Assembly: GCA_009841045.1 (NCBI GenBank) | Contig: VXMO01000052.1 | Span: 1-35,856, forward strand | DNA length: 35,856 nt | Direction: 5' to 3' | Source: Dehalococcoidia bacterium | Lineage (GTDB): Bacteria > Chloroflexota > Dehalococcoidia > UBA6926 | In this document: piece by piece, positions 8,198 to 14,112 of the stretch | Position numbering within the stretch: position 1 is the first letter of the stretch | Layout of the letters: each line of letters opens with the position of its first letter | Program-made: the position numbers and the translations under genes | The notes under the pieces: model-generated | Databases searched by the model: none | The model's input: only the letters and a program-made list of their open reading frames with translations | Told to the model about the DNA's origin: nothing

Positions 8198-9367
8198 TCA
8201 CTCCCCAATCACTACGGTCTGCGCCCCGTCCGCGCTCATCCTCACCAACTCATCAACGTCCAGTGCAGTCTCCATGCGCTCCGCCTCGTCTATTGAAGAC
8301 CGCAGGATCGGATGTTTCGGCACGAACAGGGAGCAGCAGTCCTCGTCCGGCAGGATCGAAATATCGAACGTTCCCAGGTTCCGGGCCTCAGCGATGATTT
8401 CCTGCTTGTCCATGCCCACAAGCGGCCTCAGCACGGGCATCGTCGCCACCGAATCAATGGTGGCAATGTTCTCCACGGTCTGGCTGGCCACCTGCCCGAT
8501 GCTCTCCCCGGTCACAAGCGCCAATGCATTACCGCGCCGCGCCAGCTCCTCCGCCACCCGCACCATGAACCGCCGATATGCCACCACCCGATACGCCGGG
8601 TTGACTGCCGCGACGATCTGCCGCTGAGCGTCCGCGAAGGGCACAAGGTGAAGCTGTGACCCGAACTGAGATTCGTCCAACACGCGTACAAGGTCTCGTG
8701 CCTTGTCCCGTGATGAACCGTCCACAAGCGGAAAACTGTGAAAGTGAACAAAGTCCACCGTGCATCCACGCCGGAACATCCGCGCCGCCGCCACCGGGGA
8801 ATCGATGCCCCCGGACAGCAGCGCCATAACGTGGCCGGAACTGCCAACCGGCAGCCCGCCCGCGCCCGCAACGGATTCAACGTAGACGAACGCGTCTTTC
8901 TCCCGCACATCCACGCGCAGATCGATGTCCGCCCCGCGCAGCTTGACCGCCGCTCCCGTCTCCTCCTGTACGAGAGTGCCGATCCGCGTGTTCAGATCAA
9001 CCGAGGTCAGCGGATACCGTTTGTCGGAACGTGAAGCCGAAACGCGAAAAGTCTCCGCCCCGTTCCACTCGGCTCGGACAACCTCTCTGACACCCTCAAT
9101 AATCTCCTCGTACTCCAGCCCCGTCCTCAGAGCCGGTGCGATCCGCGCAATTCCGTAAACCCGCGAAAGGGTGCTTAGGGCAGGGGAGACATCCGACCCG
9201 TCCGGCAGATCCACGCGAATCTGGCTGCGTTCCTGTCGAACAGGATGGTCCAACCCCGCGCGTGCCAGCGCCTTGCGCACATTGGTAGCCAGCGCGCCGG
9301 TGAACACGCTGCGGTTCTTCCCCTTGAGCGCCACCTCGTGGTAGCGAATCAGCAGGTGTCTTGACAT
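8198..9367 (-). CDS. thiI: tRNA 4-thiouridine synthase ThiI
   Basis: Transfers sulfur to uridine 8 of tRNA after ATP activation; in some bacteria it also serves thiazole synthesis. The 389-residue protein begins RHLLIRYHEVALKGKNR, typical of the N-terminal ferredoxin-like/THUMP part. It has the PP-loop SGGIDS at 185-190, then VTGESIGQVASQT, and a conserved DEDCCSLFVPKHP stretch. There is no C-terminal rhodanese domain, so sulfur must come from a partner, as in Gram-positive-type ThiI. The start at 9367 is chosen from the family N-terminus. The frame is open further upstream; an ATG at 9403 is a real alternative because GGAG sits only one base before the ATG at 9367. Confidence 0.93.
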   Translation of the reverse strand: MSRHLLIRYHEVALKGKNRSVFTGALATNVRKALARAGLDHPVRQERSQIRVDLPDGSDVSPALSTLSRVYGIARIAPALRTGLEYEEIIEGVREVVRAEWNGAETFRVSASRSDKRYPLTSVDLNTRIGTLVQEETGAAVKLRGADIDLRVDVREKDAFVYVESVAGAGGLPVGSSGHVMALLSGGIDSPVAAARMFRRGCTVDFVHFHSFPLVDGSSRDKARDLVRVLDESQFGSQLHLVPFADAQRQIVAAVNPAYRVVAYRRFMVRVAEELARRGNALALVTGESIGQVASQTVENIATIDSVATMPVLRPLVGMDKQEIIAEARNLGTFDISILPDEDCCSLFVPKHPILRSSIDEAERMETALDVDELVRMSADGAQTVVIGE

Positions 9368-9421
9368 TCTCCGTACGCCATCCTGTGTTGCAGCACTGCC
9401 CATCAATACTAACCCCTCTCC

Positions 9422-9451
9422 TTGACACGTAATTGAGCGGCGGCGTACAGT
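9422..9451 (+). promoter_or_regulatory. promoter of YHS-like small gene
   Basis: TTGACA (9422-9427) and TACAGT (9446-9451) are 18 bases apart, a near-consensus housekeeping promoter. The predicted start near 9458 leaves a 43-base leader carrying the GGGGGAG ribosome site. It lies in the divergent gap with thiI. Confidence 0.65.
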
Positions 9452-9500
9452 CGGCATGACTTTATTGCCGTGAACACGCAGAAAGTGGGGGAGTGGGGAC

Positions 9501-9704
9501 ATGCCTGAGACTGATCCTGTTACCGGGTACGAGTTTTCCGACAGCGAGGTTACGGAGATCGACAACGGCAACAACCGCGTCGGAACCAAGTTCCGGCACG
9601 ATGGCAGGTGGTACTACTTCAGGAGCCTGTCCGAGCGGCAGAAGTTCATTGGCAACCCCGAGGCGTATCTCGGCGGCGGCGAGGATTCTGACAGCAACGA
9701 CTAG
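9501..9704 (+). CDS. YHS-domain-like small protein lacking the cysteines
   Basis: A 67-residue acidic cytoplasmic protein. The layout DPVTG (5-9), then RWYYFRSLSERQKF and NPEAYL, matches the YHS domain pattern. That pattern normally reads DPVCG, then YYFCS..C...F and NPE.Y, and binds metal through cysteines. Here every cysteine is replaced (Thr8, Arg and Ser), so metal binding in the usual way is impossible. It has its own near-consensus promoter and a GGGGAG ribosome site. The assignment rests on pattern recognition by eye. Function is unknown; a fold-only or partner-binding role is possible. Confidence 0.6.
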   Translation: MPETDPVTGYEFSDSEVTEIDNGNNRVGTKFRHDGRWYYFRSLSERQKFIGNPEAYLGGGEDSDSND

Positions 9705-9710
9705 GCGCGC

Positions 9711-11171
9711 TCACACTGCGGGCGCGGGCGCAAGCTCGTCAACAAGGTCCCAATAGGCTGTCGACAACGACGGATCCCGATCGTTCAGATAATCACCGAG
9801 TGTGGGAACAATCAGCACGTTCGGAATGATTCCTGTGTCCTGGATCTGACGCCCTGACGGCGTATGCCATCTGGAGACGGTCACGTACAGGGCGGAGCCG
9901 TCACTCAGTTCCTGGAACGCCTGCACGCTGCCCTTGCCGAACGTTTGCGTCCCATACACCGTGGCGCGGCCATGGTCCTGCAATGCTCCCGCCACAACTT
10001 CGGACGCGCTCGCCGAGAATCCGTTGACCAGCACCGCAAGCGGCAGTTCATAGGCCTGCCCGTCCTCGTCAACCTCCCATTCGATGCGGCGACCCTCCCG
10101 CGTCATCTCGTACATCGCGAGTCCCTCAGGCACGAACTCCCCAATGATGCTGACCGCGCCGGACAGCGACCCGCCCGGGTTGTACCGAACGTCTAGGATC
10201 AGTCCCTCGATATCCCGGGCAAGGAGCGTTCCCAGCGCCTCCTCGAAATCATCCCCCGTCTCGCGGTGGAAGCGTTCCACTCGTATGTAGCCAATCGGTG
10301 GTCGATCGGTATCCTCCCCAAAGATCCGCGTTTCGATTGACGTTGGAACCACTCCGCGCATGACCGTGACGCTCATCTGGGAATCGGGATCATCCCAGGG
10401 CCGCCGAATCTCAAGCACAACCTCCGTGCCGCTCTCGCCCTTGACGATTTCCACCAGTTCGTCCACGGGCATCCCCGTCACGTCCTCACCGTCTACTGAC
10501 ACGATGCCGTCGCCCGCCAGCAGGCCCGCTGCCTCTGCCGGGCCGCCAATGAACACGTTTGAAATCACATTGATATCGTCTGTCCGCCCCACCCGCGCCC
10601 CGATGCCCTCGTACGAGCTCTCCGCGAAAAACTCCTGTGCATCTTCATACTGTCCGGAATCCAAAAACGTCAGGGCAGGGTCCTCACCGCGCACGAACAG
10701 CCCCCGTCGCGCGGCCTCCGTCACCTCCTCAAGCGACGCGTCAGGATACTCCCTCTCAAGGATCTGCATCGCCCGCCAAATATCCTCTAGTCCGTCCGGC
10801 ACACCGGACGGCGCCTCCTCGTCAAAGTTTTCCACTTCGGACAGGATGCGTTCGGCCGTATTGAAGCCACGCTCGCCGGACGCCGCAATGGTCATGAAGT
10901 AGATGGTGCGGTCGATGTCGTCCTGGTCGGGGCGCAATGGAACGCCCGCGGTCTCCTCGAAGACGCGCATCGCCTCCGTGAGAATGCCGAAGTTCCCCGG
11001 GCCGCCGAACGACACCCGTTCAGCGTCCGACGCCACGAACGTCTCCCGCGCGCCGGCAACAAGAATGATGAACGTCAGGAGCAGGGTCACCCCAACGGTA
11101 AATGACAGCGCGCGGCCGGGGTTCGGTCGAGGCTCAGGGCGACGTTCAGGTTCAGGGTGATACAGATTCAT
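9711..11171 (-). CDS. ctpA: C-terminal processing peptidase (S41 family, PDZ)
   Basis: Membrane-anchored serine protease of the CtpA/Prc family acting outside the cytoplasm. From the N-terminus it shows a proline/arginine-rich cytoplasmic stub, one membrane anchor (about 22-40), and a helical region. A PDZ domain follows ([27 protein letters not shown]). The S41 core carries the catalytic Ser388 in SASASEV and Lys413 in TFGKGS, 25 residues apart as in E. coli Prc. Length is 486 residues. It is divergent from hflX, with a symmetric promoter region between them, and convergent with the YHS-like gene six bases away. Confidence 0.93.
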
Positions 11172-11183
11172 AACCTGCCCCCC

Positions 11184-11245
11184 ATTTTACGCGCGCCGGG
11201 TAGTCATACCCACCAGGTGGGTTCCGTGTCGTTGCATCGTATACT
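11184..11245. promoter_or_regulatory. symmetric divergent promoter/operator between ctpA and hflX
   Basis: A perfect 15-base palindrome, ACCCACC-A-GGTGGGT (11208-11222), sits exactly between two -10-like boxes. These are TAAAAT on the minus strand (11189-11184) for ctpA and TATACT on the plus strand (11240-11245) for hflX. The gaps are 18 and 17 bases, so the palindrome arms (GTGGGT on each strand) occupy both -35 positions. It could be a shared activator or repressor site. A second small inverted repeat, GACGGT-A-ACCGTC (11265-11277), lies in the hflX leader. Confidence 0.55.
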
Positions 11246-11300
11246 TGAACGCACAACGACCCTCGACGGTAACCGTCATGAGCAACAGACATGGAGGCAG

Positions 11301-12494
11301 ATGAGCAAGAGACGCAGTGGTGACAGACACGGATCGAACGGACACTACACCGTTCGGCCTGAGGTCACTGCGCGCCCGCCGGAGCGCGCGCTGCTCATCG
11401 GCGCGGCAGTCAAGAGTAGAGGAGCGGCTTGGGCGCTCGATGAGTCCCTTGAAGAACTCAACGCCCTCGCCCAGAGCGCCGGCGCCACCGTCGTGGCCGT
11501 TGAGCGCCAGCGACTCGATCGATTCACCCCGCACTACATGGGCAGCGGCAAGCTCGACGAAATGCTCCTTCTCGCCCGCGACGAGAAAATATCCACCGTC
11601 ATCCTCGACGACGAGCTAACACCAACGCAGCAGCGCAACCTTGAAGAGTCGTTCAAGGTCAAGGTGCTGGACAGAACGGCGCTGATCCTGGACATCTTCG
11701 CCCAGCGCGCCCAGTCCATGGAGGGTCGCCTGCAGGTTGAATTAGCGCAGCACGAATACCTGCTGCCACGTATTCGCGGGCAGTGGAGCCACCTTGAGCG
11801 CCTTGGCGGCGGCATCGGAACTCGGGGTCCCGGCGAATCACAGCTGGAAACGGACCGTCGCCTTGTTCGCAACCGCATCCATCGGCTAAAGGGGCAGTTG
11901 GAGGACGTGCGCCGCCGCCGCGCCCAACACCGTGAATCCCGCAAGAACAAGGGCCTGCCCACCGTCTCTCTCATCGGCTACACAAACGCTGGCAAGAGCA
12001 CGCTGATGAACGCTCTAACACGTGCCGACGTGCTTGCTGAGGATAAGCCGTTCGCAACGCTTGACCCCGTAACACGCATGATGCGCCTCCCGGCCGGAGG
12101 CGAAGGACTGCTCACGGACACGGTCGGCTTTATCCAGAAACTCCCGCACAGCCTCGTAGCTGCCTTCCGCGCAACGCTTGAGGAACTCGAGGACGCCGAC
12201 CTTCTCCTCCACGTCGCGGACGCCAACGCGCCTGCGGCGTCGATGCACTACAAGTCGGTGCTCTCGCTGCTTACTGAGCTTGAAGTGGCGGACAAGCCGC
12301 GCATCCTCGTCATGAACAAGATGGATCTTGTTGATGCCGAGTCGTCACCGGAGTACCGCGCCCTCGTTGATCAGGCCTTGAACAAGACTCCCGATCTCGC
12401 CATCATCCCCGTATCAGCGCTTTCAGGCCGCGGCCTCGACGACCTCCGCACCGCCATTGAGTTCAACCTCGCCTCATCCCCCATGTCATTCTGA
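11301..12494 (+). CDS. hflX: ribosome-associated GTPase HflX
   Basis: GTPase that binds and can split stalled 70S ribosomes. The 397-residue protein has the N-terminal HflX domain with [14 protein letters not shown] and a Gly-rich [15 protein letters not shown] segment. A basic coiled coil ([18 protein letters not shown]) precedes the G domain, which has P-loop GYTNAGKS at 226-233, the switch-region [15 protein letters not shown] and VSALSG. The ATG at 11301 is preferred because GGAGG lies three bases upstream and residues before it are not conserved-looking. The last three residues (MSF) and the stop are encoded by repeat C2, so the C-terminus has been set by repeat sequence. Confidence 0.94.
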
Positions 12495-13599: not shown

Positions 13600-14112
13600 A
13601 TGAGGCGTTACGAACCCGAAACAGTCAAAGACGTCGTTCTCGGCTACCTTGGGCGCGGCGGCTACATGCTGCCCACCAACGATTCCGGCGAGGAGCCGCC
13701 CATCGGCGATCTCATTATCCTCCATGGTCGCGGCCACCGCGCCATCGCGCGATTCGAGTTCGGTGTGTCGCCCGAGAAACTCAACCCGTCCGTCGTGGAG
13801 GAGTTCAGCAACCAAAAGGACTCGCTTCAGGCGACGGCTGCCTTTCTAATCACTGACGGAGAACTTTCGGACGCCGCACGCGAGCGTGTGGAGGAGGCTG
13901 GTGTCACTGTTATCGCCGGCAAATCACTGGAAAACCTGGTTCTGGCCTACCGAGGCGCCACGTGGCCGCCTCTAAGACGACCGGAAGAACCGTTGCCGCT
14001 CCAGAAATACATCCCGTGGTTCGTCGGTATCTCGCTGGTGCTGATCGTGGCTATCGTGTTGGCGCTGATCTCATTCGAACTGACCATCAGACCGCCGGAC
14101 CTTGGAGGCTAG
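13600..14112 (+). CDS. membrane-anchored protein with Mrr/restriction-endonuclease-like domain
   Basis: A 170-residue protein. Residues 1-115 resemble the Mrr-type PD-(D/E)xK fold: GDLIILHGRGHRAIARFEFG, then FLITDGELSDAARERVEEAG and VTVIAGKSLENLV. The last pattern parallels the end of Mrr catalytic domains (ITNG..S..A.....GV.LIDG..L). The expected Q-x-K of the active site reads RFEF, so nuclease activity is uncertain and may be lost. Residues about 134-158 form one membrane helix with a short outer tail. The gene lies 12 bases downstream of a small membrane protein gene. The family call is by eye and only moderately sure. Its stop overlaps the dtd stop by four bases, convergent. Confidence 0.6.
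   Translation: MRRYEPETVKDVVLGYLGRGGYMLPTNDSGEEPPIGDLIILHGRGHRAIARFEFGVSPEKLNPSVVEEFSNQKDSLQATAAFLITDGELSDAARERVEEAGVTVIAGKSLENLVLAYRGATWPPLRRPEEPLPLQKYIPWFVGISLVLIVAIVLALISFELTIRPPDLGG

Follow-up and report, generated by a model that had tools for sequence, protein, structure and literature searches.

Why does a perfect palindrome stand midway between two outward-facing candidate -10 boxes in the short region from which ctpA and hflX of a Dehalococcoidia bacterium diverge? Divergent back-to-back bacterial promoters with an operator in between are a known general arrangement, and an earlier note, made from the sequence alone, had proposed that one regulator or one alternative sigma factor acts here on both genes through the two arms of the palindrome. 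A limited search of literature titles and the openings of abstracts returned no mention of the ctpA/hflX intergenic region. In this study, the region was compared among three genomes of the genus, namely G000 (the genome of the window), G002 (a sister species) and G001; the comparison within the order covered seven genomes, the window's own included.

Layout of the ctpA/hflX region

The window, which is the whole stretch of 35,856 nucleotides that was analysed, is one (C7) of the 63 contigs that make up a draft genome of 1.95 Mb. The ctpA gene (9711-11171, minus strand, ATG start at 11171) encodes an S41 C-terminal processing peptidase with a PDZ domain, and hflX (11301-12494, plus strand) encodes a ribosome-associated GTPase of 397 amino acids counted from the ATG at 11301. 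Family profile searches gave matches to NCBIfam TIGR00225 (prc) and Pfam Peptidase_S41 for the former and to TIGR03156 (GTPase HflX) for the latter, which bear out the gene names given in the earlier note. The two genes are separated by 129 bp, and the ribosome-binding-site-like GGAGGCAG (11293-11300, plus strand) is located ahead of the hflX ATG.

Across 11184-11245 the order is ATTTTA, 18 nt, ACCCACCAGGTGGGT, 17 nt and TATACT. The palindrome ACCCACCAGGTGGGT (ACCCACC-A-GGTGGGT, 11208-11222, strandless) is a perfect 7-1-7 dyad, which lies 18 nt from the candidate -10 box TAAAAT directed towards ctpA (11189-11184, minus strand, 12 nt ahead of the ATG) and 17 nt from the candidate -10 box TATACT directed towards hflX (11240-11245, plus strand, within TATACTTGAACG at 11240-11251). 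These boxes are 50 bp apart, and the centre of the dyad falls within 0.5 bp of the midpoint between them. Moreover, GTGGGT is found at 11217-11222 on the plus strand and at 11213-11208 on the minus strand, so that the palindrome, its distances to the opposed boxes and the hexamer on each strand are exactly as had been claimed. Another dyad, GGGTA-N4-TACCC at 11198-11211, extends into the left palindrome arm and is lost in G002.

Conservation of the two -10 boxes

The genes ctpA and hflX are divergent in all three genomes of the genus, each of which carries an outward -10 box on either side, and the HflX proteins of G002 and the window are 96% identical. On the hflX side, TATACTTGAACG is identical in G000, G001 and G002 and occurs once per genome; in the alignment of G000 with G002 an unbroken run of 14-mers with at least 13 identities (starts 11227-11242) covers this -10 region, and GGAGGCAGATGAGCAA, before and at the hflX start, is invariant across the three genomes. 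On the ctpA side, CGTANAAT is kept in all three, as CGTAAAAT, CGTAGAAT and CGTACAAT, with the -10 box in the form TAAAAT in G000, TAGAAT in G002 and TACAAT in G001. This conservation supports the divergent promoters with these -10 boxes that the earlier note had put forward, and from it we infer that both boxes work and set the start sites.

The ctpA box precedes the ATG by 12 nt in G000, by 11 nt in G002 and by 6 nt in G001, where a second in-frame ATG lies 12 nt after the box and aligns with the starts of the other two genomes. Because the box is so close to the start codon in each case, the ctpA transcript is probably leaderless or nearly so.

Two ordinary promoters arranged back to back are well supported as a prediction from these comparisons. 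They would be separate promoters of the housekeeping type with their -10 boxes 50 bp apart, in which TATACT would drive hflX, giving its transcript some 50 nt of leader along with a good ribosome-binding site, and TAAAAT would drive ctpA with almost no leader. The palindrome, which extends across both -35 slots, would then lie outside the conserved promoter machinery as a young or neutral dyad of the lineage, and would be dispensable.

A different class of bidirectional promoter, in which one -10 element is shared, has been described, in which the divergent starts are 18 bp apart, also commonly 10 and 23 bp, and flank or fall within the shared -10 element (PMC12825309). The present locus resembles that class in that divergent transcription would issue from pseudo-symmetric DNA, but differs from it in having separate -10 boxes 50 bp apart, and does not belong to it (PMC12825309).

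The palindrome in related genomes

The corresponding sequence in G002 is ACCCACGAGGTGGGG, which is identical at 13 of 15 positions and retains the core CCCAC-N3-GTGGG; both changes break a pair, and five of the seven pairs are left. The spacer between dyad and -10 box on the hflX side is 17 in the window and in G002. On the ctpA side it is 18 in the window vs 15 in G002, and the symmetry is therefore gone there. The distance between the two -10 boxes is 50 bp in G000, 47 bp in G002 and 46 bp in G001; on the ctpA side, therefore, the box does not keep its distance from the dyad. In G001, neither alignment nor pattern search gave a recognisable copy of the palindrome at the ctpA/hflX locus. The spacer of G001 carries another small dyad, CGTGA-T-TCACG, and the site may have moved or changed.

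The earlier note had let its proposal depend on whether the palindrome is conserved where the genes are. Its loss while the genes stay was found in part in G002 (two pair-breaking changes and a spacer of 15) and outright in G001. The palindrome, proposed as an operator or -35 element common to both promoters, has no clear support from conservation; it is eroded in one congener and unrecognisable in the other, and the genes and their -10 boxes persist in both. A palindrome that is striking in one genome can fail the test with two congeners while the neighbouring -10 boxes pass it.

The degree of identity to G002 gives a mixed picture. The palindrome (13 of 15) and the remaining spacer (24 of 35) are not clearly distinguished (Fisher p = 0.29). 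Third-codon-position identity between G000 and G002 is 60% in ctpA and 66% in hflX, and the palindrome is well above both. Furthermore, the palindrome yields a single 14-mer window with at least 13 identities to G002, at 11208, and this is the only such intergenic 14-mer outside the hflX -10 run, which counts against a neutral dyad. Among other 'non-coding' 14-mers, 605 of 2,114 reach at least 13 identities, so such windows are not rare; this background is a poor one, since some of it belongs to genes that had been overlooked (for example 9501-9704 and, probably, 13600-14112), and was not used as support.

Expectation by chance

A perfect 7-1-7 dyad by itself is not rare, as the window holds three against about 2.2 expected (4^-7 per position). 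The shuffle and geometry figures, all calculated post hoc with the dyad already chosen, were as follows: when the 129 bp between the genes were shuffled 20,000 times by dinucleotides, a dyad whose arms measure 7 bp arose in 0.85% with a spacer of 1 and in 7.4% with a spacer of 0-10; when the 50 bp that separate the -10 boxes were shuffled 40,001 times by single bases, it arose in 988 with a spacer of 0-8; and a dyad of the same spacer centred at most 1 bp from the midpoint arose in 85 of 40,001 (about 0.2%), which counts against a neutral dyad. In addition, a 15-mer with an outward TANNNT on both sides at 16-18 nt (at least five of six matches to TATAAT being required of each hexamer) was found at 4 of 35,766 start positions, in two places. 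The placement and geometry of the dyad between the -10 boxes are uncommon.

Ordinary promoters or a shared operator

Taken overall, ordinary back-to-back promoters around a young or neutral dyad form the best explanation, one that the sequence comparisons make rather probable. The palindrome may at best be a local, lineage-specific switch, and may have arisen by chance.

The strongest competitor, which we regard as possible but somewhat unlikely, is that the dyad is a putative operator of a dimeric regulator in the G000/G002 lineage, lying across the -35 slots and repressing or activating ctpA and hflX together. It would explain why the dyad is perfect and sits within 0.5 bp of the midpoint of two conserved -10 boxes, and G002 keeps both the hflX-side spacing of 17 and the core; the -35 hexamers, weak on both flanks, leave room for an activator. 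The locus resembles divergent promoters of the operator type in that outward -10 boxes flank a dyad in a shared intergenic region. It differs from them in three respects: the genes on either side do not encode a regulator, conservation of the dyad fails across the three genus genomes, and no further promoter sites were found among the near matches examined. The two pair-breaking changes in G002 and the absence of the dyad at the locus in G001 also stand against an operator. To our knowledge, none of the operators of CsoR, GntR/FadR, CIRCE or other known systems matches the dyad convincingly. An operator here, if true, would link envelope proteolysis to ribosome rescue in uncultured Chloroflexota.

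Copies elsewhere in the genome bear directly on this question. Counted against a reversed control, the exact core CCCACNNNGTGGG was found 1 vs 4 times in G000, 1 vs 1 in G001 and 2 vs 2 in G002; of the copies away from this locus, the one in G001 and the second in G002 are both inside open reading frames (ORFs). The second G002 core had been considered as a site between divergent genes and was rejected, because it sits among the first codons for a hexapeptide-repeat protein, and G000 conserves this protein over its entire length. When one mismatch was allowed, the core counts were slightly above control, with 71 vs 54 in G000 and 70 vs 55 in G002, an excess that would suit an operator. The pattern ACCCACCNGGTGGGT with at most two mismatches gave three sites in G000 vs four in the control, the other two being in ORFs. 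Across 60 genomes, the window's own included, the 15-mer with one mismatch allowed had 28 near copies in forward counts and its reversed control had 18; seven of the 28 came from one genome.

Twenty near matches were examined in their context, namely the two 2-mismatch G000 sites, the second G002 core, the G001 core and 16 sites of the 60-genome search; 11 more sites of that search and most of the 141 one-mismatch core sites lie outside this set. All but one of the 20 (the exception being L034) fall within ORFs of 80 codons or more, although such an ORF does not prove a gene, and no second promoter site of the motif was found among them. The genome search that the earlier note had recommended thus gave the core once in G000 and the 15-mer at 3 vs 4 in the control. 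As far as they go, such motif counts argue against a regulon of many sites and a common operator. Of the common regulator once claimed, the wider regulon has little in its favour, and what survives is a possible lineage-specific operator with a single target, the core being kept in G002. In its fullest form, a dimeric regulator with one site would couple the S41 protease to HflX, its operator being rewritten between species (perhaps as CGTGA-T-TCACG in G001) around fixed -10 boxes; we consider this improbable.

Alternative sigma factor and RNA hairpin

The use of GTGGGT as a -35 box by an alternative sigma factor at both promoters, which the earlier note had suggested on the grounds that the hexamer precedes the hflX box by 17 nt and the ctpA box by 18 nt, is very improbable. 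GTGGG followed by TATANT at 16-19 nt, counted on both strands against a control, is not enriched (3 vs 5 in G000, 3 vs 3 in G001, 4 vs 3 in G002 and 1 vs 2 in G003), and the ctpA/hflX locus itself is one of the three in G000 and one of the four in G002. The -35 slots also vary among the three genus genomes. At 17 nt on the hflX side stand GTGGGT in G000, GTGGGG in G002 and GGCAGG in G001; at 18 nt on the ctpA side stand GTGGGT, CTCGTG and CGTGAA, respectively, with GTGGGT at 15 nt in G002. GTGGGT thus shows neither the recurrence nor the retention at the locus expected of such an element, and both -10 boxes resemble ordinary relatives of TATAAT. GTGGGT differs from the -35 consensus, the -35 hexamers are weak on both sides, and a sigma-70 promoter scan of 10900-11500 returned no promoters. 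A sigma-54 promoter was rejected on inspection by eye against the spacing known for that class.

That the dyad folds in RNA as a hairpin, serving as a terminator or in a leader, as an inverted repeat with G+C-rich arms might suggest, is scarcely credible, since both -10 boxes come after it in their own direction and neither transcript would include it if those boxes are used, a terminator scan of 10900-11500 found none, and Rfam at gathering thresholds had no match in the window.

Gene neighbourhood

HflX was also followed beyond the genus in the best 80 of 576 matching GTDB stretches, many of whose titles are Dehalococcoidia, SAR202 or Chloroflexi metagenome-assembled genomes; the closest HflX among these is in JAPOOK010000014.1, 'Chloroflexi bacterium isolate APA_bin_32'. 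Within flanks of at most 2.5 kb, which limit the count, tblastn detected a CtpA relative at 9 of these 80 loci. One of the nine is divergent, and it is the G002 contig. At the other eight, hflX is followed on the same strand by the CtpA match, an order also found in G005 and G006. In G003, a member of the same family (L146/L053, contig C17), ctpA is divergent from a putative htpX, so read from a zinc-protease motif, and hflX follows. Among the loci examined, the direct divergent ctpA/hflX pair is seen only in this genus. A loose recurring neighbourhood of hflX and ctpA is apparent at L079, L097, L110, L111, L114, L063, L069 and L095 (among the best 80 of 576).

On the other side of ctpA, before thiI is reached, there is an ORF of 67 amino acids (9501-9704, plus strand) that runs opposite to these two genes. 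It is strongly conserved, as the stretch 9590-9710 is 93.4% identical in G002 and 169 of 206 ORF bases are identical in G001, and it has a sub-threshold Pfam match to the YHS domain (E 0.0095, 16.4 bits, cut-off 30.3). The thiI ORF as listed (8198-9589, minus strand, TTG start at 9589) overlaps it. Because matches to the ThiI family begin only at residue 78-79 of the listed ORF, the true thiI start is probably downstream, near MSRHLLIRYHE.
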